DNA of 52,048 bases from Piscirickettsiaceae bacterium (GTDB lineage Bacteria > Pseudomonadota > Gammaproteobacteria > Nitrosococcales > Methylophagaceae): contig JAIBDY010000012.1 in the NCBI GenBank assembly GCA_024685995.1, positions 1-52,048 of the forward strand. The letters run 5' to 3'. The notes under the pieces are model-generated. The model searched no databases and was not told the DNA's origin. It worked only from the letters and a program-made list of their open reading frames with translations. Shown here in pieces: positions 1 through 12,821 of this stretch (position 1 is its first letter; each line of letters starts with the position of its first letter). A program made the position numbers and the translations under genes.

Positions 1-1044
1 AAATGGAATGGAAAAACAATGCAAAGGGTAACTGTTGGCAAGTTTCCTGATGTATCAGTAACTCAAGCACAACAAAAAGCACAAGCTATTCTAACGGCTA
101 TTAATTCAGGTATTGATCCTACAGCAGAGAAACGTAAGAAAGAGCTAGCACAAATCAGTCTTGAGGATGTGTTGGAGTCATATTTGGCTGATCGTGACTT
201 GAAGCCCTACACTGTTAAAGATTATCGGTATAGGCTCAAGTTGGGTTTTAGTGATTGGCTTGAAAAGCCAGTGAGTAGCATTTCAAAAGACATGGTTTTA
301 AAACGGCACAAAAAGATCAGTCGAACAGGTAAAACGACAGCTAATAACACAATGCGTGTATTACGCCTGACAATGAATCATGCCAAAGCTGTTGGTATGA
401 TAGATAACAACCCCGCCAGCATATTAAGCGAAGCTCGTTTATGGCATAAGAACAACCGCAAAGACCGAGTAATACCAAGCAATCAATTGCAGGCATGGCA
501 TCAAGCAGTTGAAGCGCTACCAAATCAACGAGCCAAGGTCTATTTGTTAATGGCTTTATACATGGGATTTAGAAGTATAGAACTATTAACGTTGGAATGG
601 TCGCACGTCGATATTAAAGGCAAGAATATAACCCTATATGACACCAAAAATGGCACAAATCATAGCTTACCGATCCCTACCGTGCTATTACCCCATATTA
701 AGACGTTAAAGGAGCAAACAGGGTCTTATAAGTGGGTATTTGCTGGTAATAATCCATTAAAACCGATGGCAGTACCAGCCAAGCCCGTGAAAGCCGTTAC
801 AAAAACAAGTGGCGTGGAGTTTAGCCCGCATGATTGCCGTCGTACCTTTGCAACAATAGCCGAAGCAGTGAACTTACCATTGACCATGATTAAACGCTTA
901 ATGAATCACGTTACCACCAATGATGTGACAGGTGGTTATATCGTGACCGAAGAAGAAACATTGCGAGTCGCGATCAATAAAGTGGCGGATTACATACAAA
1001 CCAGAGTGACACAGAAGGATAATGTTATTCAGTTAAGAAAATAA
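1..1044 (+). CDS. Tyrosine recombinase/integrase, P4-like, 5' end outside window
   Basis: This enzyme would catalyse site-specific insertion and excision of the island. The reading frame is open from base 1: six codons (KWNGKT) precede the first ATG at 19 and match the arm-binding N-terminal domain (DUF4102), which typically reads W..NGK.xRVTxGxFPDxSV. The gene therefore starts upstream of the window. Counting from the ATG at 19, the catalytic set is complete: R185 (in GFRSIEL), K210, H271-x-x-R274 (HDCRR), H297 and nucleophile Y307 (GGY). A core-binding SAM-like segment lies at about residues 50-140. It is followed by a higBA module about 45 bases downstream. The nearest visible tRNA, tRNA-Phe, is 11.6 kb away, which is unusual for an integrase of this family. 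Confidence 0.93.
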   Translation, partial: KWNGKTMQRVTVGKFPDVSVTQAQQKAQAILTAINSGIDPTAEKRKKELAQISLEDVLESYLADRDLKPYTVKDYRYRLKLGFSDWLEKPVSSISKDMVLKRHKKISRTGKTTANNTMRVLRLTMNHAKAVGMIDNNPASILSEARLWHKNNRKDRVIPSNQLQAWHQAVEALPNQRAKVYLLMALYMGFRSIELLTLEWSHVDIKGKNITLYDTKNGTNHSLPIPTVLLPHIKTLKEQTGSYKWVFAGNNPLKPMAVPAKPVKAVTKTSGVEFSPHDCRRTFATIAEAVNLPLTMIKRLMNHVTTNDVTGGYIVTEEETLRVAINKVADYIQTRVTQKDNVIQLRK

Positions 1045-1055
1045 CTAGTAACGTG

Positions 1056-1083
1056 TTGCATTATTAACGAGATACGGTATTAT
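1056..1083 (+). promoter_or_regulatory. Putative promoter of higBA
   Basis: A TTGCAT -35 (1056-1061) is separated by 16 bases from a TATTAT -10 (1078-1083). The higB start codon at 1090 is only 7 bases past the -10, so a transcript from here would have almost no leader. Antitoxin-bound operators often overlap such promoters, but I see no clean inverted repeat. Confidence 0.45.
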
Positions 1084-1089
1084 GTTGTT

Positions 1090-1371
1090 ATGATTAAAAG
1101 CTATGCGAATAAGCTTACCGAACAGGTGGCGAATGGCGTTTATTCAAAGAAGTTGCCAAGTGAGATAAAAACTCGTGTTTTGATGCGGTTGGTACAGCTA
1201 GATAATGCCGCCAGCATCGATGATTTAAGATTACCACCGTCAAATCATCTGGAAAAATTATCAGGTGATAGGCAAGGGCAATACAGCATAAGAATAAACC
1301 AGCAATGGCGATTATGTTTTGAGTTTGAAAACGGCAATGCTTTTAATGTGGAAATAACTGATTATCACTAG
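1090..1371 (+). CDS. higB: HigB-type mRNA interferase toxin (RelE superfamily)
   Basis: This is a 93-aa toxin of the HigB/RelE family, which cleaves mRNA on the ribosome. The length matches the family (about 92 aa). The diagnostic core HLEKLSGDRQGQYSIRINQQ at about residues 53-72 carries the conserved basic residues, and the protein ends in DYH, like the C-terminal Tyr-His that contributes to catalysis in characterised HigB proteins. The toxin gene precedes the antitoxin gene, the hallmark HigBA order. No Shine-Dalgarno is evident, and the proposed promoter would give a nearly leaderless mRNA. It sits directly behind the integrase, where such modules commonly stabilise mobile DNA. Confidence 0.92.
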   Translation: MIKSYANKLTEQVANGVYSKKLPSEIKTRVLMRLVQLDNAASIDDLRLPPSNHLEKLSGDRQGQYSIRINQQWRLCFEFENGNAFNVEITDYH

Positions 1372-1380
1372 GAACGAAAC

Positions 1381-1653
1381 ATGATCAACAATCCATTTCA
1401 TCCCGGGGTGTTTCTTCAAGAATTACTAAAGGAAATGAATATTACCCCTTACCGATTGGCTAAAGATACCTTTATGCCAGCAACGCGTGTGGGCGATATT
1501 CTAAAAGAGCGCCGAGCGATTACGCCTGATACGGCATTAAGACTGGCCAGGTATTTTGGTACAACACCAATTTATTGGCTGAATTTGCAAAGCAGTTATG
1601 AATTGAGTCAGTGTCACCCAGAGCATATTGAAGACATACACGCGATTGCGTAA
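1381..1653 (+). CDS. higA: HigA-type antitoxin, XRE-family HTH
   Basis: This 90-aa antitoxin binds HigB and represses its own operon. The N-terminus (HPGVFLQELLKEMNITPYRL) is typical of the HigA/VapI group. An XRE helix-turn-helix spans about residues 8-63, and the end of the fold shows the family pattern YFGTTPIYWLNLQSSYEL. The start ATG follows AGGAACG at a suitable distance, 9 bases after the higB stop, so the two genes are co-transcribed. No frameshift or missing segment is visible, so the pair looks functional. Confidence 0.93.
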   Translation: MINNPFHPGVFLQELLKEMNITPYRLAKDTFMPATRVGDILKERRAITPDTALRLARYFGTTPIYWLNLQSSYELSQCHPEHIEDIHAIA

Positions 1654-1725
1654 AAATAACTAATTTCCGCTATTAAGATGATGAAGAACCAATTTGTATA
1701 GCATGGATGGCATGAAGGGGAGTAC

Positions 1726-2388
1726 GTGGGGTTGGGTCCAGAATATTGGCAAGATAGAGGTCATTACACTATAGAACAAACAGCTATTCTTGCTGCTGGT
1801 GGTGATCCTTGTAAAAAACTGTCGCATCAATCTAATAAAAAAATGATTTCAATAATTGATGCCGACTTAAGATTAGCACTCATATCTACAGTGACATATG
1901 CCCGCGAATTAGTTAAGAAGGGTAAGGTTGGTCGATATGTCGATAAGTTACATGACTTCGATATATTTGAGCATGAGTGTATTGAATATGGCGTTTCATT
2001 CTACAAATCAATCGCTGAAGAAAACTTTGCAGCTTTAAATGAAAAAACTCACCCTACAGTAGATTCAATTAAGCTTTCGGTGGCCGATATAAGGTCGTGG
2101 TTAAGGTCTGAGCAAATAAGCTCTAAATTCTTTTTTCCAAACGAAGACAGTGATGGACAAGAGTTCAAGCCAAAGACTCAACAGCAGCGCGAGGCTGTAT
2201 TAGTAAGTTTGATAACGAAACATGGCAAAGAGTATTTACTCAAGCTTGGTCATCCTGGGGTATGGAAGTTGCTTCGTGAAGCTAATGAAGGGCTTTTCAC
2301 AAACAATGGCCGAGAATATGGCCAATCAACAATAAAAGCCTTCTTTCGCAAACAAAAACATCTCAAAGGTTTTAAGCCTAGCGGATAA
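1726..2388 (+). CDS. Mobile-element protein of unknown function, 220 aa
   Basis: I do not recognise a characterised family. The GTG start is supported by an AAGGGGA Shine-Dalgarno 5 bases upstream. Residues 14-28 (YTIEQTAILAAGGDP) resemble the 'T.EQAA.L..G.DP' N-terminal signature I associate with hypothetical proteins of integrative elements. The C-terminal third is helical and basic and ends in a segment (REYGQSTIKAFFRKQ) that could be a small DNA-binding helix pair. No signal peptide or membrane segment is seen. It lies between higBA and the alpA-like gene on the same strand. A regulatory or replication-accessory role is only an inference. Confidence 0.75.
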   Translation: MGLGPEYWQDRGHYTIEQTAILAAGGDPCKKLSHQSNKKMISIIDADLRLALISTVTYARELVKKGKVGRYVDKLHDFDIFEHECIEYGVSFYKSIAEENFAALNEKTHPTVDSIKLSVADIRSWLRSEQISSKFFFPNEDSDGQEFKPKTQQQREAVLVSLITKHGKEYLLKLGHPGVWKLLREANEGLFTNNGREYGQSTIKAFFRKQKHLKGFKPSG

Positions 2389-2441
2389 GGGTAATTTTAA
2401 TTACAGTAAATAGTGCTAAAACCATTATTTCTAAGTCTTTA

Positions 2442-2479
2442 AAAAGGGTATTTTATTGATAGAGTAAATTTACCCTTTT
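2442..2479. repeat. Inverted repeat upstream of the alpA-like gene
   Basis: AAAAGGGTA (2442-2450) and TACCCTTTT (2471-2479) form a perfect 9-bp inverted repeat around a 20-base AT-rich spacer. It lies in the 170-bp non-coding gap before the alpA-like gene. A smaller palindrome (GTAATT-TT-AATTAC) lies about 40 bases to the left. It could be an operator, part of a replication origin or a transcription terminator for the 220-aa gene. The sequence alone does not decide between these. Confidence 0.6.
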
Positions 2480-2560
2480 ATAGCTTTTTCAAAAAAAATT
2501 CGTTTCTCTAAGCTTGCGCTCAACCTCAGACATTTACTGGGGATGACGAAAGGAGAAACA

Positions 2561-2755
2561 ATGGTTACAAAATATCTATTAACCGCTGACGAAGCGGCAA
2601 CACATCTAAATGTATCTGTACGTACACTAGCCAAATGGCGAAGTGTTGGTTATCCGAACCTTCCTTACTCAAAGGTCGGTCGATGCGTCAGATATAAACT
2701 TCTCGATCTTGAAGCTTATTTAGCTAAACACTCGTTTAATTGTGTGGAGGGCTAA
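2561..2755 (+). CDS. AlpA-type excisionase/regulator (MerR-like HTH)
   Basis: This is a small DNA-binding protein of the AlpA/HTH_17 group. In P4-like and related islands such proteins activate or direct excision and switch on the replication genes. The helix-turn-helix is at about residues 7-50, with LTADEAATHLNVSVRTLAKW followed by the wing motif VGRCVRYKLLDLEAYL. A longer frame begins at ATG 2543, but ATG 2561 has an ideal AAAGGAGA Shine-Dalgarno and is chosen, giving 64 aa. It opens a compact cluster in which the next four genes follow closely or overlap. Confidence 0.9.
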   Translation: MVTKYLLTADEAATHLNVSVRTLAKWRSVGYPNLPYSKVGRCVRYKLLDLEAYLAKHSFNCVEG

Positions 2756-2758
2756 GTC

Positions 2759-2935
2759 ATGGTCAAAAACACAGCCAATAAGCTTACTTTAAGAACTGTT
2801 ATAGACGCGAAATGTCGTGAATGTATATATGACCCTCAGTCAGAAGGATCGTGGCGAAAACAAGTCGAAAATTGCCTTTCCCCAGGATGTTCTTTGTTTC
2901 CTAAAAGACCAATCAGCAAGGGAGGTAAAAAATGA
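2759..2935 (+). CDS. Small four-cysteine protein, 58 aa
   Basis: This short gene reads from ATG 2759 to TGA 2935 and is preceded by GGAGGG at 2745-2750. The product contains CRECIYDP near residue 20 and CLSPGCSLFPKRP near residue 42. These give a C-x2-C...C-x4-C pattern that could bind zinc or another metal. Similar 'C.eCiyDp...GsWr.Qv..C....C.L.p.RP' proteins occur in phages and integrative elements, to my knowledge without a known function. The stop overlaps the next start as ATGA (2932-2935), indicating translational coupling. That coupling, the RBS and the coherent composition argue strongly that it is a real gene. Confidence 0.82.
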   Translation: MVKNTANKLTLRTVIDAKCRECIYDPQSEGSWRKQVENCLSPGCSLFPKRPISKGGKK

Positions 2936-3357
2936 AATTACCTTTACCAACTTCAAAAACAGGTCGTGTATTTGCAGCATTAATGACGGGTAATAGTTAT
3001 AACTTGTTTGAAGCAGCATTAGAGCTACACGACCGTTCATTACACAGTACTGTATCAACATTGCAGAACAAGTATGGCATCAAAATATCTAGGGCTTATG
3101 AATATATCCCTGTTTTTGGTGGCACTAAGACGCGATGTTGTCGTTACTGGATCGATCTTGATGAACGAATGCGAATATTAATCGAGAGAAGTTCAGAAAA
3201 AGAAGAAGCCCTAACTGCCAGCGACGAAACTATAGGAAAGGGCTTAGATACTTCAATTGTCGATGATAGCGCTGATGGTGATGATCAGCAAGTGTCTGTT
3301 TTATCAATGCCGGTGAGGTATGTACGAAACTGCCTCAAAGCGATTGCACGGTTTTGA
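2932..3357 (+). CDS. Element protein of unknown function, probable winged-helix N-terminus, 141 aa
   Basis: The start codon overlaps the previous stop as ATGA, with GGAGG at 2921-2925 as Shine-Dalgarno. Residues 1-75 (SKTGRVFAALMTGNSYNLFE, then a helix and VSTLQNKYGIKISR) have the layout of a small winged-helix domain like those in phage regulators. The rest is acidic and low in complexity (residues about 85-125). The last 38 bases overlap the next gene in another frame. It is placed just ahead of the HUH replication protein, so an accessory or regulatory role in replication is plausible but unproven. Confidence 0.75.
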   Translation: MKLPLPTSKTGRVFAALMTGNSYNLFEAALELHDRSLHSTVSTLQNKYGIKISRAYEYIPVFGGTKTRCCRYWIDLDERMRILIERSSEKEEALTASDETIGKGLDTSIVDDSADGDDQQVSVLSMPVRYVRNCLKAIARF

Positions 3358-4102
3358 CATAGCGGAATTGACACAGGAAAGCGAAGCCAAGCCTATACAG
3401 GGTGAGGCTTCGTATTTTTCCGAAACGGGTGATAAGTCACGGTTATTTCTAATATCTAAAGATGCTCTTGATAAACCTACAAGTAACAATAGCAGTGAAG
3501 CTAAGAGAAAAAAGAAACGTAACCGAAAGACAGTCGTCTTTAATGATATTTTTACCCATAACGGAAGAGATTATCGTGTCAATTCGGCTAAGTCAGGGCT
3601 ATATGCCGAAATCCTTGCAAAAATAATCGAGCAGTTTGAATTAGCGAGCCAAAAATGGGGCCGGGTCTTTGCCATTCGTTTTGACTTGCACTCACATTAT
3701 TACTCGGGCGATAACAAACGAATAACGTTATTTAGAAAAAGGTTATTTCAGCGTTTAAAGCGTGAATATGGGTTCAGTGAAATTGGCTTTTGCTGGGTAC
3801 GTGAAATGGAAAAAAGCAAAGCACAGCACTATCACTGGGTTCTGTTTTTAGATGGTAACTTAATTCGTCACTCAAGCAGAATCAATCACATGATTAAGCA
3901 TGCCTGGGAAGATGAAACGGGTGCCTATCACGTGCCAGTCATCAAACGTCCATTTTATTTTGGTAAAGCAGAGGACATAGCACAAGACGTCATTTATAGA
4001 GTGTCTTACCTAGCAAAAGCTAGGGGCAAGGGATACAGGGATAAACAGGCAAAAGACTATCAAACATCAAGAATGAAAAAAGGAGCTAATCATGGCCGGT
4101 AA
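3320..4102 (+). CDS. HUH-type replication initiator, inovirus Gp2/YagK-YfjJ family
   Basis: This protein is likely to nick DNA to start rolling-circle replication. The C-terminal two thirds fit the inovirus Gp2 (YagK/YfjJ) family. The metal-binding HUH motif is H170-Y-H172 (in AQHYHWVLFLDG), and a nucleophile motif with Y226 and Y230 followed by K233 lies in DVIYRVSYLAKA. Residues 60-71 are strongly basic (SEAKRKKKRNRK) and the first 60 residues look poorly structured. ATG 3320 is the first in-frame codon after a stop. It overlaps the preceding gene by 38 bases, with GGTGAGG close upstream. The end overlaps the next gene by 11 bases. The set suggests an autonomously replicating or phage-parasitic element. 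Confidence 0.85.
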   Translation: MYETASKRLHGFDIAELTQESEAKPIQGEASYFSETGDKSRLFLISKDALDKPTSNNSSEAKRKKKRNRKTVVFNDIFTHNGRDYRVNSAKSGLYAEILAKIIEQFELASQKWGRVFAIRFDLHSHYYSGDNKRITLFRKRLFQRLKREYGFSEIGFCWVREMEKSKAQHYHWVLFLDGNLIRHSSRINHMIKHAWEDETGAYHVPVIKRPFYFGKAEDIAQDVIYRVSYLAKARGKGYRDKQAKDYQTSRMKKGANHGR

Positions 4103-4712
4103 ACATATTACACCTAAGCAAAAAGAGCAGGCGATCATGCTCAGGGCAGCAGGTTACACACACGCCGTCATTGCTGATAAGACGAACATATCGATGTCAG
4201 CATTAAAACGACTATTCAAAACACATTCCGTGAGGCGAGGTGAGTTGAAACAGTCGGTAATTGATAAAGCAAAAGATGAATTGCTTAATGATGCCAATAC
4301 TATTGCCAATATCAAGCTTGAAGCAGCAAATCTGCTGTTTGATGATTTAGCTCAAGCAAAACGATTAAGGCAGGCAATGGCTGCGGCAACTGAGTACTTG
4401 GAAGCAAACAATACAGCAGAGGCATTACAGGTTATGCGAGCCGTTAGTGCCGGAGCGGTTGCTTTGAAGTCCACAAGTGAAACGCTTCGTAAATCATTAG
4501 GGTTAGATAAAGATGACGATCTTGGTGATGAACTACCAGAACTTGTCATCAGCGTTATGACAGAAGATGAAATGGCTACCATAAGGCACGAGGCCAAAAT
4601 GCGTAGTGTAGGGTTTGATGATGGCTTGGGTGGCTTATTGCCTATTGACGATGATGAAGCTGATAACGAAATCGTAATGGAAGGCTATGAGCCAGAAGAG
4701 GTACCAACTTGA
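4092..4712 (+). CDS. HTH protein, possibly small-terminase-like, 206 aa
   Basis: The N-terminus has a helix-turn-helix resembling resolvase or small-terminase DNA-binding domains (residues about 8-45; key stretch GYTHAVIADKTNISMSALKR). A long helical middle region (about 60-145) is rich in Ala, Leu and Glu, and the tail is very acidic. This layout of DNA-binding head, oligomerising helices and acidic tail recalls phage terminase small subunits, but I cannot assign it to a family. It overlaps the Gp2-like gene by 11 bases with the RBS (AAGGAG) inside that gene. The two are therefore coupled and probably act in the same process. Confidence 0.78.
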   Translation: MAGKHITPKQKEQAIMLRAAGYTHAVIADKTNISMSALKRLFKTHSVRRGELKQSVIDKAKDELLNDANTIANIKLEAANLLFDDLAQAKRLRQAMAAATEYLEANNTAEALQVMRAVSAGAVALKSTSETLRKSLGLDKDDDLGDELPELVISVMTEDEMATIRHEAKMRSVGFDDGLGGLLPIDDDEADNEIVMEGYEPEEVPT

Positions 4713-4762
4713 CCCATAAAAATCAAACCCTTAGATATTTTCGACTATACCGTAGGGCTACC

Positions 4763-4789
4763 TTTCAAAATTTTTTGTCAATTTTGAAA
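4763..4789. repeat. AT-rich 10-bp inverted repeat after the replication genes
   Basis: TTTCAAAATT (4763-4772) and AATTTTGAAA (4780-4789) form a perfect 10-bp stem with a 7-base loop, 50 bases after the 206-aa gene. No U-tract follows, so it is not a classic terminator. A nick-site hairpin for the HUH protein or a regulatory operator are alternatives. Confidence 0.6.
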
Positions 4790-4900
4790 ATTGGATGATT
4801 GCTGGTGGCTTTTAAATATGTCACCAGATGAAAATCTTTACAAGCAGATTGTTTTAACTAGATAAGACGTCAATTTAGCCAAATAAGAAAGGAAAGCATT

Positions 4901-5083
4901 ATGCAAATTAAAGCTATAACAACAGAGCAATATGTTGAAATTTACGAGCAACTAACAAGCATCACTGAACATAATCCAAACTCAACCACTACAGCCTATT
5001 CAGGAAAGATCTCAGGGATCGGTAGCGTTGTTATTACTAGCGATTCAGTGCAATGCCTGCTTTTCAGTAATAAAGCAAAATAG
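4901..5083 (+). CDS. Hypothetical small protein, 60 aa
   Basis: A short frame with a good ribosome-binding site (AAAGGAA, about 6 bases before the ATG) in the AT-rich element. The protein (starting MQIKAITTEQYVEIYEQL) has no motif, signal peptide or membrane segment that I recognise. The gap of 188 bases before it contains only the inverted repeat. It is the last gene of the plus-strand element module, facing the end of the minus-strand restriction operon. Confidence 0.55.
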   Translation: MQIKAITTEQYVEIYEQLTSITEHNPNSTTTAYSGKISGIGSVVITSDSVQCLLFSNKAK

Positions 5084-5203
5084 ATGGTTTGTTAGCCTTG
5101 TGTTTTGTATATCGGTTGTAAATAATTTTGAACTTTTAGATTCAAAGGCTTACTATAGTAGTGCTCATTCACCATCCTTTGGTGTTAGCGTGAAAAGAGT
5201 TAC

Positions 5204-5233
5204 GGCTCCGTCCTCTTTGAGGGCGCGGCCAGC
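5204..5233 (-). terminator. Possible terminator of the restriction operon
   Basis: Just after the last minus-strand gene, an imperfect GC-rich hairpin can form around CCTC-TTT-GAGG. On the minus strand it is followed by a short T-rich stretch (CTCTTTTC). The stem has mismatches, so the call is weak. Confidence 0.35.
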
Positions 5234-5234
5234 T

Positions 5235-5720
5235 TTATTTATCTCTGTTTCTTTCCCAACGTTTCAAATACTTTTGTTTTTGCCGCTCACGCGCAACATG
5301 GAATGCTGTCCATAGGATTAGGTAGCCGTTTCTCCTGTTAAGCACAATCAAATAGCCATCATCCTGGAACCAAATGTGTATCCGTTGTTCTCCTTTGTGC
5401 TTTTCTGTCCAAATCTTTAATGAGTCATCAGTGTGATTTTCGATAATAGGCTTTGGCCAACGAATACGTTCACACCTTCGTAAATCAGGCATTCTTTCAT
5501 CCTCAATTTCCCCTTCACTTGTAATGTGCCAAAAAGTAGACTCTTTTCCATCGATAATAGGCGTGCGTTTTAGGCCTATTTTTTGATCTCGGAAGTAAGT
5601 TATAGAATCAATAAAGTTTTGTTTGAATATCAGATAGAGAGCATCAATGTATATCTGCCAATCACCGTCATAGTTTTCAAGTGGCTCAAATTCAGGAAGC
5701 CAGTTAGGTAATTCATCCAT
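5235..5720 (-). CDS. Restriction-operon accessory protein of unknown function, 161 aa; possible BECR-fold nuclease
   Basis: This last gene of the hsd operon starts 3 bases after the DUF3800 stop, so the two are coupled. I do not recognise a named family. The N-terminal half is helical (WQIYIDALYLIFKQNFIDSI) and is followed by a short strand with a His (ESTFWHITSEGE). The C-terminal part (KIWTEKHKGEQRIHIWF, then DGYLIVLNRRNGYLILWTAF) alternates strands and basic residues. It recalls the small toxin/nuclease folds grouped as Barnase-EndoU-ColicinE5-RelE-like (BECR). That resemblance is pattern-based and unverified. The tail is strongly basic (ARERQKQKYLKRWERNR), which would suit nucleic-acid binding. 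Confidence 0.75.
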   Translation of the reverse strand: MDELPNWLPEFEPLENYDGDWQIYIDALYLIFKQNFIDSITYFRDQKIGLKRTPIIDGKESTFWHITSEGEIEDERMPDLRRCERIRWPKPIIENHTDDSLKIWTEKHKGEQRIHIWFQDDGYLIVLNRRNGYLILWTAFHVARERQKQKYLKRWERNRDK

Positions 5721-5723
5721 GGT

Positions 5724-6425
5724 TTAATTTGTTCCATTCCAAATTAAGAGATTGAACTTCAGTTCTCTCAATAATGTATTGTGTGTGAGCTTATATCCGC
5801 TACGTTTGCGAATACGGTCGATTAACGCTTCTTTGGCCTTACTTTCATGTAGATCTCGGTGAACATAAGACAAAGCACCGATTAGTAAGTCAGCCACCTG
5901 TAACTGCTCAGCCTCATGAGAGTGAATGCGTTTAATGTCAGCAATCATCCGACGTGAAAAGTCAAAAGCGTTATTACACAAGACATCCTGTAATTTTTCG
6001 ACCTTATGCTGACCAAGCGTATCTTTAATATCAATAAACACTTTATAGCGGCTTTCAGGATCAAAAACGGTCTTAAGCATGGTGAAATACATTTTGTAGT
6101 ACCAGTCATCATGGCTATGACCAAACTGTTCATGATTTAATTGGTCTTTATCAGGCACTACAAGGCCTCTGAAATGAAGATCATCATCATCAAAAAAATA
6201 GTCAATTAAGTCTAGATAAAAACCTAGTTTGGATGGACTGACTTTTGTCCATTTCACCTCAAAATTACGAGGTAAACCATGTTTTGATTTAATTTCACGC
6301 AGACGCTCAGCTATCGACAACCTTTTATCTAGCGGGCACCATACAGCACCTAATACCATGGCTTTTTGATGATCATTTTCTAGATGGCATGACTCATCGC
6401 AGTAGACATTAAATTCAGTTGTCAT
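5724..6425 (-). CDS. DUF3800 domain protein in the hsd operon
   Basis: This 233-aa protein belongs to the DUF3800 family, predicted to have an RNase H-like fold with acidic active-site residues. The N-terminal signature VYCDES gives D10 and E11 and is followed by the strand AMVLGAVWC. A second acidic strand carries D132 (KVFIDIKD), and the family's C-terminal motif LQVADLLIGALSY carries D179. All the expected acidic positions are present. The start overlaps the hsdS stop as ATGA, so its production is tied to HsdS. DUF3800 genes are recurrent neighbours of restriction systems and other defence loci, but their role there is not settled to my knowledge. Confidence 0.88.
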   Translation of the reverse strand: MTTEFNVYCDESCHLENDHQKAMVLGAVWCPLDKRLSIAERLREIKSKHGLPRNFEVKWTKVSPSKLGFYLDLIDYFFDDDDLHFRGLVVPDKDQLNHEQFGHSHDDWYYKMYFTMLKTVFDPESRYKVFIDIKDTLGQHKVEKLQDVLCNNAFDFSRRMIADIKRIHSHEAEQLQVADLLIGALSYVHRDLHESKAKEALIDRIRKRSGYKLTHNTLLRELKFNLLIWNGTN

Positions 6426-8188
6426 AATTTCACTCCTTGCTCAACCACAGCACAGGCGAGGTGTTGTTGGGTGGTTTGGGCTTGATTGAGGCCAACCTTG
6501 AGCTGGTCACATAAGGTCATCAACTCATCGACTTTAGCGACGATGCGGTGTTGTTCAGCGAGAGGGGGAAGTGGTGTAGCTATTGGTGTTATGGTGCTGG
6601 TATTCAATTCCACTTGTTTTGTTGTTCCTGAAACAAGAGATAATTCGTGTTCAGGATCGATTTTCAATTGGATACTTGGTGACGTTAAATAGGTGCAAAT
6701 AAATTGGCTATTCACGAACAACGGTCTAATTATCGTCACATGAGAGTCTGCAACTAATTTACCCTCGGTTTTAGGTAATACATTAATCCTACCAACCGTT
6801 CCTGTTCCTGTTGAGTTCCAAAGGAGATCATGCGTTTTTAGAAAGCGTTCTTCCTGATAGGCATCCAAACTATGCTCATCGACAAACCTAGCTTTTGATA
6901 AATCGAATCCTGCCCATTGGATGCATTTTTGAGATACAACTTGAACTGAACCTATTTCTGCATATTTAGGACCTTTACCTCGTTGAATGTATTCTGCTAA
7001 ATTCTGAAGTCTTGCCCACTCCCATCCATCAGGCAATTTAAACAGTTTTTCATCATCGGTAATAGCTGACAACGGTTTTTGCTTTTTAATCTTACCGTCT
7101 TTAATCAGTTGGGCTTTTTCAGCCGCGATTTTTTCCAGCAACACGCTGGCGGGTTCGTCGTTGGGGTCTTGGGGGACGAGTTTGCCCATGACGGCGAGTT
7201 GCAGAATGGTTTGCTTGAGTTGGTCGATGCTGGCATCGGTAGTGAACAGGATGTCGAAGTTAGTAGCGAGTTGTGACCAGATGGTTTGAAACTGCTTATT
7301 ATCAGCCGCTTGACATAGGCTATCGAGCAAGGTGGTGACGAGGGTGTGATGGGTGTCGCTGTGCTGGAGCTGTTGTTGCTCTAACTGGTCGCATAAGGCC
7401 ATTAATTCATCGACTTTAGCGACTATGCGGTGTTGTTCTAAGAGTGGAGGTAGGGCAAAGACAATATCTTTAATTTGAGCGGTACTTAAATTTGGAATGG
7501 CACTACCCATCGATTTTGATAAATTCTCTTGTATCTTCGTCGTCAATGGATGATAAAGAAATGAGCAAGATAGAATGTAGGGAGAAATTTTACCTACTCG
7601 CTGGTTTATATAATAAATTTCATTTGATGTATTAAAGCCTAATTTACCTGTCGTAGCGCCAGACATAGCAATCAACATGTCGCCATTTTTTATCATGAGG
7701 CTATCATCGAGATTAGTAATGACCTCCTCATTTACTCTGGACATTGAGGCTGATGTCACTTCACCGTTTTGAATATCGCCAATTTTGACTATACCAATAC
7801 CAACGTCTGTAAAATCACTACTTTTGAATGCGAATCCATTCACAAATTCAGCAACATCTCCAAGTCGTATCCATTCCCAACCATCAGGCAAATCAAATGG
7901 CTTATCATCCGCAGTAATTTCAGGCAATGGCTTTTGTTTTTTAAGATTGCCCGCTTTGATTAATGCTGCTTTTTCAGTCGCAATTTTTTCCAGCAACATG
8001 CTGGCAGGGTCATCCTTGGGATTTTGTGGCACTAATAAGCCTCGCACAGCGAGTTCTAAAATCAGTTCACGTAGCTTTTTGATGCCGGTGAGTTCGATTT
8101 TGCTATTGCTGCCACGCCCTGTAGTTGAACGCTTGGTTTCGGCACTGGTCCATAGATCAATATTGTCAGTAATTAGTTGTTGCAACAT
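6422..8188 (-). CDS. hsdS: Type I restriction-modification specificity subunit HsdS
   Basis: HsdS gives the complex its bipartite DNA target. At 588 aa it is longer than many (about 400-460 aa). It has an N-terminal helical segment, target-recognition domain 1 (about residues 100-250, opening LPDGWEWIRLGD), a central conserved region (250-345), target-recognition domain 2 (about 385-545, opening LPDGWEWARL) and a distal conserved region. Both halves end in LPPL-x-EQHRIVAKVDELM. The halves are clear internal duplicates in the conserved parts but differ in the recognition domains. The gene begins 2 bases after the hsdM stop and shares ATGA with the DUF3800 gene. No frameshift is visible. Confidence 0.96.
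   Translation of the reverse strand: MLQQLITDNIDLWTSAETKRSTTGRGSNSKIELTGIKKLRELILELAVRGLLVPQNPKDDPASMLLEKIATEKAALIKAGNLKKQKPLPEITADDKPFDLPDGWEWIRLGDVAEFVNGFAFKSSDFTDVGIGIVKIGDIQNGEVTSASMSRVNEEVITNLDDSLMIKNGDMLIAMSGATTGKLGFNTSNEIYYINQRVGKISPYILSCSFLYHPLTTKIQENLSKSMGSAIPNLSTAQIKDIVFALPPLLEQHRIVAKVDELMALCDQLEQQQLQHSDTHHTLVTTLLDSLCQAADNKQFQTIWSQLATNFDILFTTDASIDQLKQTILQLAVMGKLVPQDPNDEPASVLLEKIAAEKAQLIKDGKIKKQKPLSAITDDEKLFKLPDGWEWARLQNLAEYIQRGKGPKYAEIGSVQVVSQKCIQWAGFDLSKARFVDEHSLDAYQEERFLKTHDLLWNSTGTGTVGRINVLPKTEGKLVADSHVTIIRPLFVNSQFICTYLTSPSIQLKIDPEHELSLVSGTTKQVELNTSTITPIATPLPPLAEQHRIVAKVDELMTLCDQLKVGLNQAQTTQQHLACAVVEQGVKL
6503..6556. repeat. hsdS internal repeat, copy 1 (distal conserved region)
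   Basis: 54 bases that recur at 7385-7438 with 5 mismatches by direct comparison. They encode the conserved helix EQHRIVAKVDELMTLCDQL that follows target-recognition domain 2. The near-identity at DNA level makes recombination between the halves possible. Confidence 0.85.
7385..7438. repeat. hsdS internal repeat, copy 2 (central conserved region)
   Basis: Direct-repeat partner of 6503-6556, encoding the equivalent helix EQHRIVAKVDELMALCDQL that follows target-recognition domain 1. A second, longer and more diverged pair is found around 7079-7190 and 7935-8040, encoding the segments before each recognition domain. Confidence 0.85.
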
Positions 8189-8190
8189 GG

Positions 8191-9660
8191 CTATTTTTCG
8201 CCCGATAAGGCGACGGATAAGATGCCTTTTAGTTGGTCGCGAATGGCTTGTATTTGTTGTTGCTGCTCGGCATACATTGTAAGTAGTACTTCAGGATCAT
8301 GAATTTCCGTTTCAACCACATGTGGGTTTTTAATATCGAGGTTGTAGTTACGGGCTTTGATGTCGTCGATGCTGACTTGCCATGCTTGTTCTGTTTCAAC
8401 GCGATCAGCAAAGCCATTTTGTTCATTACCCCACCAGTCGATTTCAGTTTGGAACTCATCAAAGCGCATTGGTTTAGTTTTGTTATAGCTTTTTATGCCT
8501 GCTGGGTAGGGGTGTTCATAAAACCAGATGTGTTCAGTTGGCGTGCCTTTGGTGAAGAACAGTAGATTGGTTTTAATGCCCGTATAGGGATTGAACACGC
8601 CATTAGGTAGGCGAACGATGGTGTGGAGATTACATTCCTCTAATAGCTTTTCTTTAAGGCGGGTTTTCATGCCTTCACCAAATAGAAAGCCATCAGGTAA
8701 GACGACGGCAGCACGACCACGATCTTTTAATAGATGAATGATCAAGGTCATAAATAGATCGGCGGTTTCACGGGTGCGAAAGGCTTGAGGGAAGTTGGTT
8801 TCGATGCCGTCTTCTTCTTGACCACCAAACGGCGGATTGGTGATGATGGTATCAACCCGCTCTTTTGGCCCCCAGCTAATTAAGGGTCTGGCTAGTGTGT
8901 TGTCATGGCGAATTTGGTTGGGCACTTCGATGCCATGCAAAATCATATTGGTGGTGGCAAGCAGATGGGGGAGTGGTTTCTTTTCTACACCGTGGATACT
9001 GGCCTGTAGCGTTTGTTCATCAGCCGGTGTTTTTACATAGGCTTTTCGTTTGTGGTCGATAGCGCAGGTTAGGAAGCCGCCAGTACCACAGGCAGGATCG
9101 AGTGTGGATTCATTTATTTTAGGATCAACCCGATTGACCATAAATTCAGTAACGGCTCGCGGGGTGTAAAACTCACCGGCATTACCAGCGCTTTGCAGGT
9201 CTTTGAGGATTTGCTCATACATATCACCAAACAGGTGACGTTCTTGCGCTTTGTTAAAGTCGATGCCTTCTTGGATTTTATTAATCACTTGGCGAATCAG
9301 TTGGCCTGATTTCATGTAGTTGTAGGCATCTTCAAAGACATTACGGATCACGACCGCACGTTGGTTATCTGCTTCTACTTCTAGATTTTGCAGGGCAGGG
9401 AATAGCTTGTTATCAATAAAGTCTTTCAGTTCATCACCGGTCATACCTTCGGCATCGGCTGCCCAGTTGCGCCAGCGATAGCTTTCTGGAATGGGTGACG
9501 AATAATTGTCGTTGAATAATTCCCACTCTTGCTCTTTATCATCAAAGATTTTGAGAAACAGCATCCACACTAACTGGCCGATTCGTTGGGCGTCACCATC
9601 AACACCTACGTCTTTACGCATGATGTCTTGGATTGATTTAATGGTACTGCTAATGCTCAT
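8191..9660 (-). CDS. hsdM: Type I restriction-modification DNA methyltransferase HsdM
   Basis: HsdM is the N6-adenine methyltransferase of the complex, used for host protection and, with HsdR, restriction. The 489-aa length is normal. The N-terminal HsdM helical domain covers about residues 1-155. The AdoMet motif I is DPACGTGGFL at 188-197 and the catalytic motif IV is NPPF at 275-278. The start has an AAGGAAC Shine-Dalgarno. It sits 47 bases after the 129-aa gene and directly before hsdS. All motifs are intact, so the enzyme should be active. Confidence 0.97.
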   Translation of the reverse strand: MSISSTIKSIQDIMRKDVGVDGDAQRIGQLVWMLFLKIFDDKEQEWELFNDNYSSPIPESYRWRNWAADAEGMTGDELKDFIDNKLFPALQNLEVEADNQRAVVIRNVFEDAYNYMKSGQLIRQVINKIQEGIDFNKAQERHLFGDMYEQILKDLQSAGNAGEFYTPRAVTEFMVNRVDPKINESTLDPACGTGGFLTCAIDHKRKAYVKTPADEQTLQASIHGVEKKPLPHLLATTNMILHGIEVPNQIRHDNTLARPLISWGPKERVDTIITNPPFGGQEEDGIETNFPQAFRTRETADLFMTLIIHLLKDRGRAAVVLPDGFLFGEGMKTRLKEKLLEECNLHTIVRLPNGVFNPYTGIKTNLLFFTKGTPTEHIWFYEHPYPAGIKSYNKTKPMRFDEFQTEIDWWGNEQNGFADRVETEQAWQVSIDDIKARNYNLDIKNPHVVETEIHDPEVLLTMYAEQQQQIQAIRDQLKGILSVALSGEK

Positions 9661-9707
9661 GGTGTTCCTTGGTGTTGTATCTTAAGTTTATGTCTGGATG
9701 GTAGGTA

Positions 9708-10097
9708 TTAAATACGTTTGAAAGCGCTAGGGTCAACAAAACCGAGCAATTCTTTCAATGCTGATTTGGAGTGAACAGCAACGGCGTATGCGGTTTTTTT
9801 ATTACCCTTGAGCACCTCACCATGTTCATTAAAACGATTGATGTTTGAGTTTTTTCTCAACTCAACCCAGTCAACGGTGATACCTGAGATATTATCAATT
9901 TCACTTTTAAATCTACTCAGTGATGGGTTTATCAGTAGTGGGTTTTTACAAACTGGTTTTGTATCTGGCTCGTTTGATGTTTTTATGTAAACAATTTCTT
10001 TGCTTTGCGTTTTGTAGCCTCTAATTCGTTTATTTCGTTTAAATGTTGCCAAATTAAGATCAATTAATGCATTTTCAATTTCGAAGGAGTTGAGCAT
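9708..10097 (-). CDS. Unknown 129-aa protein encoded between hsdR and hsdM
   Basis: The ATG abuts the hsdR stop (TAAATG), so it is probably translated by re-initiation after hsdR. I do not recognise the family. The N-terminal 50 residues contain a basic stretch (TFKRNKRIRGYKTQSKE). The C-terminal half (VDWVELRKNSNINRFN, then KKTAYAVAVHSKSALKELLG) looks like a compact alpha/beta fold. The acidic and basic residues are mixed and there is no membrane segment. Its place between the nuclease and methyltransferase genes suggests a control or assembly role, an anti-restriction function, or protection against HsdR toxicity. None of this can be told from sequence alone. Confidence 0.78.
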   Translation of the reverse strand: MLNSFEIENALIDLNLATFKRNKRIRGYKTQSKEIVYIKTSNEPDTKPVCKNPLLINPSLSRFKSEIDNISGITVDWVELRKNSNINRFNEHGEVLKGNKKTAYAVAVHSKSALKELLGFVDPSAFKRI

Positions 10098-12479
10098 TTA
10101 TGCGTAAAGCTCCTGTTCTAGTAGTTTTAATGCGTCGATGTACTGCTGCTTGCCACCGAAGGCATTAAGTAGCTCTATTGGGGCGCCCATGTCTGAAAAT
10201 GGTGCAAGGGTCAGTATCTTAAAGTCTTCTATTGGCTCAATTCCCGTATCAGCATATTTGTTCAATAGTGCTTCCAGTACTTGTCTAGCTGCGCCCTCAT
10301 ACTTGGTGAAGTAATTGCGTTTTTTTACGTTTTCAGCACGTTCTTTGCGTGATAGTGGCGGCTGGTCATAGACGATGTGAGCAATGAGGTCAAAAGCATC
10401 CATTTCTATGCCTAGTTTGTTGCGAACATCATCTCGTAATTCCTCCCAAAACACGCCTTGTTCGGTTAATTCTTGGATAATCGCTTTCTTTTGATCGGCT
10501 TCAGCCCAAGTCCTTAAAAAGTCTTTCATGGTGGCGAACTGTTTTTTCACACATGACTTGGTGTAGTCGGTGAGTGACTCGGTAATGAGTTTGCCATCGG
10601 AACCTAAGTATTGAACACGTTCTGCCGAGACTTTGACATCAACACCTTTAACGACATATTTAACTCGCGGTTCGCCAATTTCACCGCCACCAATTCCGGT
10701 ATTACCACCTTCCGGTTCTTCTGGTAGAGGGTAGTCAGTGCCACCACCAGTTGAAGTGCCGGTTTCGCCTGTTTCTTCGGGTGGCTCAATAGTGCCACCA
10801 GGTGTTGGCTCATAAATTTGAACCGGATCGCCATCAAAGTCTTTATCTGCAAATAGTTCGGTTGCCTTTTTGAAATCCATGATGGTAAACCAGTGTTTAT
10901 CGTAGTCTTCATCAATACGTGTACCGCGACCAATAATTTGTTTAAATTCAGTCATTGATTTGATACGTTGGTCAAGCACGATTAACTTACAAGTTTTGGC
11001 ATCCACTCCCGTGGTCATCAGTTTGCTGGTGGTTGCGATAACAGGATAGGTTTGTTCGGGATCGATGAAGTTGTCGAGTTCAGCTTTGCCTTCGTTTTCA
11101 TCGCCGGTAATTCGCATGATGTATTTACGGTTCTCTTTGACGCGCTGAGGGTTTAAATTCACAAGCGCTTGTCGCATACGTTCGGCATGATCGATGTCAT
11201 TACAAAACACGATGGTCTTTTGAAATTCACCTGTACGTTGTAAAAATTCGGTGATCTTTGAAGCAACGAGATAGGTACGTTCATCAAACACGATATTTTT
11301 GTCGATGTCTTTTTGATTATAGATACGATCTTCAATTAGATTGCCGTATTTATCTTTTTGACCTTTAGTTGGACGCCAGCCTTGTAAGTCGATGTCGAAA
11401 TCAACACGCACGACTTTATATGGGGCTAAGAAGCCATCATCAATGCCTTGTTTTAATGAATAGGTATAGATTGGGTCGCCAAAGTATTCGATGTTAGAGG
11501 TATCTTTGGTTTCTTTGGGTGTAGCTGTTAAACCGATGTGTGTCGCTTTGCTGAAATAAGACAAAATTTCACGCCATGCTGAATCATCTTTGGCACTACC
11601 TCGGTGACACTCATCGATAACAATAAGATCAAAAAAGTCGGGTGAGAATTGTTTGTAAATGTCAGCTTCGGCCTCATTACCTGTTACGGCCTGATATAAA
11701 GACAGATAGATTTCATACGATTTGTTGATTTGACGTTTGGTGATCTTGGTCATCGCCTGACCAAAAGGTTTGAAGTCGTTGTTTTTGGTTTGGTCGACCA
11801 AGATATTTCTATCAGCTAAAAATAAGATGCGTTTCTTTTGGCGTGACTTCCATAGTCGCCAGATGATTTGAAAGGCGGTGTAGGTTTTACCTGTACCTGT
11901 TGCCATGACCAATAAGATGCGGTCTTGGCCTTTAGCTACTGCTTCTACCGAACGATTAATAGCATTGACTTGATAATAACGAGGGCTACGACCGGAGCCA
12001 TCATCATAATAATGTGATTGCACGACTGCTTTTGCTTGGTCGTTGATGTTTTTATGTTGGCAGTACCAGTTCCATAGCGTCTCAGGAGAGGGGAAGTTAT
12101 CGAGCGAGAGTTCTGTTTCAACCTGTCCACTTAAACCTGTTCGGTCATGAAATAAGAATCCGTCACCATTACTAGAAAAAATGAATGGCACATCAAGCGC
12201 ATCAGCATAAGCCAAACCTTGTTGCATACCATCGCCAATAGAATGTTTATTGTCTTTGGCTTCGATGATAGCAATAGGGAAGTTTTTTTGATGGTATAAG
12301 ACATAATCAGCACGGCGCTTTTCACCGCGAGTATGTAATCGACCTCGAACAATAATACGTCCAGCGGTGAAGGTGACTTCTTGGCGAACTTGCGAATGAA
12401 TATCCCATCCTGCATTTTGAATGGCTGGTGTGATGTACTTGGTGCAAATATCTTGTTCGCTAAGTGTTTTCTTATTCAA
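10098..12479 (-). CDS. hsdR: Type I restriction endonuclease subunit HsdR (EcoEI-like)
   Basis: HsdR is the ATP-driven translocase and nuclease of the type I complex. The 793-aa length fits the EcoEI group. The PD-(D/E)xK nuclease residues are D58 and E73-x-K75 (IIEAKD). Helicase motifs follow: Walker A GTGKT at about 194-198, and DECH at 289-292, followed by HRGSA. A Gly/Pro/Glu-rich linker is seen at about 565-605, before the C-terminal assembly domain. The best start is TTG 12479, giving [15 protein letters not shown], which matches the family N-terminus; there is no in-frame ATG upstream. A TTG start and weak RBS would keep levels low. It is first in the operon. Confidence 0.96.
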
Positions 12480-12597
12480 TGAGTAATCCGTCCCTGATTC
12501 ATAAGATAGTAACGGAATATAGCACTATATAAAGCGCTAAACCAAGCTAAAGAACACTAGAAGTGAAGTTTGAAACATGACCCTGCCATGACCCAAC

Positions 12598-12633
12598 AAA
12601 AAAGGCTTAGGACGGTTAAGTCACTAAGCCTTT
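12598..12633 (-). terminator. Rho-independent terminator of tRNA-Phe
   Basis: On the minus strand a perfect 10-bp stem AAAGGCTTAG/CTAAGCCTTT with a 13-base loop is followed by a T run. It begins 8 bases after the tRNA 3' CCA and separates the tRNA from hsdR. Confidence 0.88.
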
Positions 12634-12641
12634 GAATTTGA

Positions 12642-12717
12642 TGGTGGCTCGACCTGGAATCGAACCAGGGACACAGGGATTTTCAATCCCTTGCTCTACC
12701 GACTGAGCTATCGAGCC
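12642..12717 (-). tRNA. tRNA-Phe (anticodon GAA)
   Basis: Seventy-six bases fold into a canonical cloverleaf: acceptor stem GGCTCGA/TCGAGCC, D arm GCTC/GAGC, anticodon arm AGGGA-TTGAAAA-TCCCT with anticodon GAA, a 5-base variable loop GTGTC, and T arm CCTGG-TTCGATT-CCAGG. The 3' CCA is encoded. The 3' end points toward the genomic island, the usual orientation for an integration target. Confidence 0.98.
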
Positions 12718-12730
12718 ATCAAGGTCGCGT

Positions 12731-12760
12731 ATTAAACCTGTTTAAGGCCCTCTGTGTCAA
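12731..12760 (-). promoter_or_regulatory. Promoter of tRNA-Phe
   Basis: On the minus strand a perfect -35 TTGACA (12755-12760) and -10 TTTAAT (12731-12736) are 18 bases apart. The GC-rich stretch ACGCGACC follows, a discriminator typical of stringently controlled stable-RNA promoters. Confidence 0.78.
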
Positions 12761-12821
12761 GTCTAAAGGCGATTTAATTTAGGTTTCCCTGTATGGGAAT
12801 GGTTGTTTTCAGGCTTGATGT

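Follow-up and report, generated by a model that had tools for sequence, protein, structure and literature searches.

Piscirickettsiaceae bacterium (Methylophagaceae; assembly GCA_024685995.1) carries a type I restriction operon of six genes, hsdR-orf129-hsdM-hsdS-DUF3800-orf161, within a 52,048-nt stretch of contig JAIBDY010000012.1 (the window, positions 1 to 52,048). The last two genes encode homologs of RlfA and RlfB of phage P1, and we use these names for them. Sequence comparisons support the view that the two genes make up a real module with a tie to restriction operons. In this study, we establish the anatomy of the operon, its homology to the P1 genes, the recurrence of the pair in restriction operons, a set of conserved candidate residues and the predicted fold of RlfA. 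The analysis adds the link between this operon and the P1 pair, counts of RlfAB for the different types of restriction system, and a delimitation of the mobile element that carries the operon.

We propose, with a confidence that stops short of even, that this operon combines a restriction system with a co-expressed second-line nuclease module, RlfAB, which would be tied to restriction by a slot logic like that of PrrC. PrrC is encoded within the EcoprrI operon, and the enzyme keeps it sequestered until a phage blocks the enzyme and PrrC is set free (PMC3874165), and PrrC and PARIS have been termed restriction-modification guardian systems (PMC12707154). Both papers describe EcoprrI/PrrC (type IC) as a case of an extra effector gene inside a type I operon. 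In our proposal, a mobile element at tRNA-Phe carries the type I operon, and the two-protein module is embedded in that operon. HsdR, HsdM and HsdS would restrict and modify DNA in the usual manner. RlfA is most likely an RNase H2-like nuclease, and the overlap of its start codon with the hsdS stop codon would couple its synthesis to that of HsdS. RlfB would act as its partner, either a regulator that restrains RlfA or another RNase. Like PrrC, the pair most likely fires once a block or bypass has disabled restriction, and would cut RNA or RNA-DNA hybrids of the invader or of the host. The nuclease activity, trigger, substrate and Hsd contact of RlfAB are what we infer here; a second-line role when restriction fails would fit both the operon slot and the predicted RNase H2 fold. 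If this is right, two P1 genes labelled 'possibly associated with lytic replication' would gain a testable role, as would a defence candidate whose first gene was detected in 18 of the 398 genomes sampled from the phylum, and PrrC-like backup effectors would be common to different classes of restriction systems.

Operon layout and the type I restriction core

All six open reading frames (ORFs) were found on the minus strand where a preliminary description of this DNA had placed them, and the four tight junctions that it named proved correct on re-reading of the sequence. hsdR (10098-12479; 793 amino acids (aa), TTG start) is followed with zero gap by orf129 (9708-10097), TAA then ATG. hsdM (8191-9660; 489 aa) and hsdS (6422-8188; 588 aa) are 2 bases apart, hsdS and the RlfA gene (5724-6425) share four bases (ATGA), and 3 bases separate the RlfA gene from orf161, the RlfB gene (5235-5720). 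A junction absent from that description is the spacing of 47 bases between orf129 and hsdM, so that orf129 is tightly joined to hsdR only. Between positions 4700 and 12720, six terminator-like sites were found, not more than expected by chance (shuffle mean, 7.2), and eight promoter-like sites, fewer than in shuffled sequence (mean, 18.1). This result is compatible with a single transcript across the region, without proving one.

HsdR matched the EcoAI/FtnUII model NF046051 with 1208.5 bits (cut-off, 550), and a motif search found IEAK at residue 72, GTGK at 195 and DECH at 289. HsdM matched N6_Mtase and HsdM_N and contains both DPACGTG and NPPF, and HsdS matched Methylase_S in two stretches. 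Nuclease and helicase motifs in HsdR, N6-methyltransferase motifs in HsdM, target-recognition domains in HsdS and their union in a single operon place the system in the EcoAI (IB) type. Because the families match and the catalytic motifs sought in HsdR and HsdM are present, the restriction system looks intact and EcoAI-like. It shares the HsdR, HsdM and HsdS families and the R-M-S order with EcoAI/FtnUII type IB systems, as seen in three loci (L009-L011; L numbers denote individual loci throughout). It differs from them by the addition of RlfAB after hsdS and of an orphan between hsdR and hsdM. After hsdS, L009 and L011 bear other gene pairs and L010 bears a symE gene.

Homology and predicted fold of the RlfA-RlfB pair

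The DUF3800 protein (PF12686) matched the PADLOC profile PDC-M04A (E 4e-99) and orf161 matched PDC-M04B (E 8e-64), so that both profiles of this pair are hit by adjacent genes. The same profiles matched 81/81 aligned RlfA and 79/79 aligned RlfB proteins. PDC stands for 'phage defence candidate' (PMC11514479). PDC-M04 is a catalogue candidate, which is found here joined to a full type I operon; the comparison was made at the level of the two profiles.

A tblastn search of phages with orf161 matched nine records, including P1 (RlfB) and P7 (RapB). The identity of orf161 to P1 RlfB was 37.8% by tblastn (E 1e-23) and 33% in the alignment, and RlfA of the window is 50% identical to P1 RlfA in the alignment. 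In P1 and P7, rlfA or rapA precedes the RlfB or RapB gene with a 1-base overlap, and the first gene is called DUF3800 in the P1 record. Both genes are therefore homologous and in the same order as in the window (phrog_16230 and phrog_3732). The surroundings are unlike those of the window operon: in P1, hsd genes are not adjacent, and the pair follows a C1 operator, lies beside repL and is annotated as replication.

The AlphaFold2 model of RlfA, built from 81 sequences, had a mean predicted local distance difference test score (pLDDT) of 88 and a predicted template modelling score of 0.88. Foldseek gave 21 PDB matches at E<=0.001, all of them RNase H2, HII or H3, with template modelling (TM) scores of about 0.37-0.55; the top match was 3puf (E 4.6e-6, TM-score about 0.5). 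D10, E11, D132, D155 and D179 are invariant in all 81 aligned sequences, are kept in P1 RlfA and are candidate catalytic residues. The pattern DE..D..D is that of RNase HII. The predicted fold of RlfA is therefore that of RNase H2, and its acidic residues are conserved. This fold is not new, since DUF3800 has already been described as an RNase H fold nuclease and an accessory of CRISPR (clustered regularly interspaced short palindromic repeats) loci (PMC10910872, PMC12669027), with mention of a 'catalytic rearrangement' (PMC10910872). The DUF3800 proteins of CRISPR V-A2 and VI-F loci share the Pfam family with RlfA and are likewise accessories of a defence system. However, the one of PMC10910872 bears TPR domains, and the accessible text of the two CRISPR papers mentions no RlfB partner. 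No DUF3800-associated Rfam RNA motif was found in positions 4600-12800, where only tRNA and a sub-threshold match on the opposite strand appeared at E<=1.

The preliminary description had called for structure predictions, which gave significant PDB matches for the DUF3800 protein and none for orf161. The RlfB model is confident (pLDDT 94). HigB1, RelE and colicin D entries stand within its first nine PDB matches at non-significant E-values (0.23-0.47), beside designed NTF2-like proteins, which is at most a hint of likeness to RNases of the RelE, HigB or colicin D type. In a search of viral folds, an uncharacterised siphovirus protein (E 5.8e-13) was the sole match at E<=0.001. H65 of RlfB is invariant in 79/79 aligned sequences, and R76, R82 and R85 are nearly so; L033 and L036 are left out of this alignment, as RlfB is short or cut off there. 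No Pfam family was matched at E<=0.1 by more than one of the 79 RlfB members, and searches of the sequences of solved structures with RlfA, RlfB and orf129 gave nothing useful. No PrrC-type family was among the library matches of RlfA or RlfB, where the presence of a PrrC model in each library was unchecked. The likeness of RlfAB to PrrC would thus be confined to slot and logic.

The fold is also compatible with a different role, in which RlfAB helps restriction or replication and RlfA clears primers or RNA-DNA hybrids where DNA is restricted or replicated. The position of the C1-controlled P1 pair beside repL and oriL is in keeping with this role. We nevertheless consider it improbable. A CRISPR interference study of P1 lists rlfA and rlfB as non-essential (PMC10695390, table), and rlfA-rlfB-pmgF counts among the eight variable regions described for P1-like plasmids, in which res-mod and sim likewise lie in variable regions (PMC9603915). 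These reports speak for cargo rather than core replication, without settling the question. A housekeeping role is, moreover, ill suited to the patchiness of RlfA, which occurs in only 17 of 397 other genomes sampled from the phylum. Beyond the P1 table, no functional work on RlfA-RlfB or PDC-M04 was found in a literature search that did not extend to subscription journals or preprints.

Among plasmids, orf161 was matched in 102 records, 88 of them from Escherichia. A DNA-similarity search, which missed P1-like copies, found the pair in 3 of 5,426 E. coli genomes, always on the chromosome. In the two copies inspected (L108 and L109), the pair adjoins prophage-type genes outside hsd operons; its neighbours are yicG and, in L108, also dinD, and it borders on genes of prophage or satellite-like character (Icd-like, PerC, DUF4222). 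A scan of viral contigs with RlfB alone found nothing. In another genome (G046, locus L006), an ORF matches only the C-terminal part of RlfB and follows a frame that looks DUF3800-like yet is unlike RlfA.

Recurrence of RlfAB beside restriction systems

A scan of genome contigs with an alignment of five RlfA sequences gave at least 543 relatives from at least 586 pattern matches, and the best 80 loci were analysed. Neighbours within flanks of up to 10 kb per side were typed by profile searches, with types taken from Pfam and PADLOC on representatives. The RlfA counts rest on profile hits, and some loci lie on short contigs. In all 80 best loci, the RlfB gene directly follows the RlfA gene; the two overlap in 75, and the gap never exceeds 3 nt (start codons as picked by the script). 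Type I hsd genes were found at a distance of 10 kb or less in 34 of these loci (35 by a looser count) and type III-like mod genes in 13, of which 11 have a res-like gene. Six have other defence neighbours: a DUF1156 methylase with a PLD helicase in three, a type IIG-like gene with an HKD/Snf2 helicase in two and DRT1 alone in one.

The order hsdR-hsdM-hsdS-RlfA-RlfB was found in Marinobacter (four loci), Alishewanella, Bacterioplanes, Marinomonas and Pseudomonas, the order hsdM-hsdS-RlfA-RlfB-hsdR in Thiodictyon, Dehalococcoidia and others, and the order mod-RlfA-RlfB-res in Bacteroidota (L074, L078 and L085). In several lineages, RlfAB is thus lodged inside the operon, flanked by hsdS and hsdR or by mod and res. 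The gene prrC is located between hsdS and hsdR, and RlfAB of some relatives resembles it in this position. In 16 of the 29 loci with an hsdS-like ORF upstream, the hsdS-RlfA junction is exactly -4, as in the window, and it is 15 nt or less in 21 of the 29. The preliminary description had suggested a composite defence. The idea of a composite operon is half borne out, as the five-gene order and the 4-base overlap recur in other genera and the sixth gene, orf129, is an orphan.

Because the 80 loci are the best-scoring ones, an evenly drawn sample of the phylum was examined as well. PDC-M04A was matched at E<=1e-20 in 17 of its 397 other genomes (18/398 including the window), and type I genes lie nearby in six of these carriers (L139, L140, L141, L147, L149 and L151). 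L148 of the same sample has a PLD-helicase-like gene and a 1373-aa ORF that is weakly HsdM-like. In Methylophagaceae, RlfA is rare: two of 56 other family genomes have it at E<=1e-10, as distant forms (30-37% identity). As a background, HsdM_N gave 115 matches in 59 of 114 genomes of the class, about one per few-megabase genome, from which the chance of type I genes in a 20-kb stretch is estimated at roughly 1%. Even at a background of 5%, the probability of six or more of 17 carriers having type I neighbours is about 1e-4. Nearness could result from the tendency of defence genes to cluster in islands, which would hardly account for the exact 4-base hsdS overlap in 16/29 loci.

A quick maximum-likelihood tree of 86 RlfA proteins bears on the history of the pair. 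The label 'type I' needs 20 changes on this tree, whereas 500 shuffles gave a mean of 28.1 and none as low; 35 of the 83 inner branches are weakly supported, so that the exact count is soft. Branches starred in the tree force at least seven changes of this label. Five added rows (P1, one E. coli copy, L003, L004 and L005) were labelled by hand, three of them from about 3.4 kb. Because of these change counts, the pair has probably moved repeatedly between defence contexts, while some lineages kept type I.

Several observations weigh against the proposed second-line module. The 80 loci are the best-scoring set, not a random draw, and several neighbour seeds were derived from these very loci. No restriction or defence gene was recognised in 27 of them, some on short contigs, and the same holds for 10 of the 17 carriers in the phylum sample, near which neither type I nor other recognised defence genes were found. 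In two of the 13 type III-like loci (L057 and L063), mod is distant or on the opposite strand, and two of the 21 tight hsdS junctions involve short hsdS fragments (L022 and L053). RlfB was detected in only 10 of the 17 phylum-sample loci, and four of these detections were weak (E about 1e-6); the pairing is therefore not universal among more distant DUF3800 proteins. The HsdM_N background was drawn from a single class, although many phyla are represented among the loci, and nearness alone is weak evidence since defence genes cluster anyway. None of the 407 PDB matches of the RlfB model reached E<=0.001. Finally, the P1 record annotates the pair as 'possibly associated with lytic replication', its place behind a C1 operator beside repL suits lytic expression better than the guarding of a lysogen, and the presence of the pair outside hsd operons in P1 and two E. 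coli copies indicates that the Hsd enzyme is not required.

It is possible, though on balance rather doubtful, that RlfAB is an antiphage nuclease pair in its own right, which merely uses cargo slots in islands and restriction operons and acts independently of the state of restriction. The pair is hsd-free in P1 and beside prophage-type genes in two E. coli, and it has no recognised partner in 27/80 loci. Its neighbours are very diverse (types I, III and IIG-like, DUF1156 with PLD helicase, and DRT1), and other cargo, such as Mrr, Fic, KwaB and radical SAM with thymidylate kinase, lies in or beside these operons. However, the -4 overlap with hsdS in 16/29 loci and the placement inside mod-res and hsdS-hsdR operons exceed mere nearness. 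We keep to the coupled second-line module as our tentative reading. A bolder reading, which we regard as somewhat unlikely, is that RlfAB is a portable 'restriction guardian', in which an RNase H2-like nuclease and its partner serve as an emergency effector adopted by many unrelated DNA-modification defence systems (type I, type III, type IIG-like and DUF1156/PLD helicase) and by P1, whose supposed replication genes would then be a defence or counter-defence cassette.

Some individual loci have further neighbours. In two Pseudomonas (L024, 5978-11187; L026, 5837-11187), RlfAB stands immediately behind a DRT1 reverse-transcriptase gene pair, and in L026 this group follows type I genes, of which hsdR is truncated by the edge of the examined locus. 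In the type I locus L076, a KwaB-like (Kiwa) gene (8872-9840) immediately precedes RlfAB. In L047, L052, L067 and L093, a second, diverged type III Res/Mod-like pair adjoins RlfAB; the Res-like protein of L047 has a ResIII match in Pfam and matches no PADLOC model at E<=1e-10.

The orphan orf129 and the mobile element

orf129 (G+C 0.35) looks like a coding frame. Its coding score is 0.110, against -0.023 and -0.004 in the other frames of the same strand, although a score of 0.086 is reached by one reverse frame. When the 437-nt gap was shuffled 5000 times by mononucleotides, the ORFs that arose had at most 124 codons, short of the 129 of orf129. No match to orf129 was found in Pfam, PADLOC, NCBIfam, PHROGs or PDB sequences, nor among plasmids or phages. 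Pattern-based scans of viral contigs and genome contigs, which are sensitive to close relatives only, gave nothing, and there was no relative at E<=0.001 in 368 other genomes of the class or 56 other genomes of the family. The family search gave weak matches in 14 other genomes (E 0.01-0.44), the best of which (E 0.0106) lies in a frame with two stops; we take these matches as chance. A loose phmmer search (E<=10) against ORFs of the window and of loci L003-L093 gave a best other match of E 0.42. As a member of a conserved system, orf129 was thus rejected for want of relatives in the homology searches.

The preliminary description had raised the idea of a single defined six-gene system, with HsdR under the control of orf129. 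The start of orf129 directly after the hsdR stop and its coding score would suit such a system. The six-gene order with orf129 was not found outside the window, though, and orf129 has no relative at E<=0.001 in genomes, plasmids, phages or contig scans. In addition, hsdR and hsdM are only 24-175 nt apart in eight of the nine measured EcoAI-type operons bearing RlfAB, and in the ninth (L026) an Mrr-type gene sits between them. Nothing was found in support of control of HsdR, and we consider the six-gene system very improbable. That description had also held that lack of conservation of orf129 or orf161 beside hsd genes would count against it; orf129 is indeed not conserved there, while orf161 is. 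orf129 therefore falls outside the conserved system. Genes also lie between hsdR and hsdM in other type I clades (Fic with two unmatched genes in L036; radical SAM and thymidylate kinase in L029). Because L026, L036 and L029 also hold genes there, the hsdR-hsdM junction is a second cargo slot, occupied in the window by an orphan.

The operon starts just below a tRNA-Phe gene (12642-12717, minus strand; RNA annotation), the insertion site of a mobile element. A 47-bp attachment-site core in the 3' half of tRNA-Phe lies at 12641-12687, and a second copy is present on contig C51 of the same genome (13468-13514), where it adjoins the start of the integrase gene. The end of contig C51 overlaps the start of the window by 141 bp. 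The 3' part of this tyrosine integrase gene lies at 19-1044 on the plus strand of the window and its 5' part on C51, giving an uninterrupted protein of 395 aa. Because the core recurs beside the integrase start on a contig that overlaps the window start, the restriction operon is, on this evidence, the cargo of a 13.0-kb integrated element. The element spans about 13,015 bp (window 1-12687 plus C51 13468-13983) and also holds a helix-turn-helix gene and, at 3320-4102 on the plus strand, a gene for a replication-type protein (YagK/YfjJ and REP_ORF2-G2P family matches). An imperfect repeat near both element ends (12575-12598, plus strand; other copy at L102:2148) is a possible integrase arm site. 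In a genome of the same genus (L107), relatives of the integrase, of orf141 and of the replication protein lie beside a similar site. Two small ORFs at 1091-1650 resemble, by inspection only, a HigB/RelE-type toxin and a HigA-type antitoxin.

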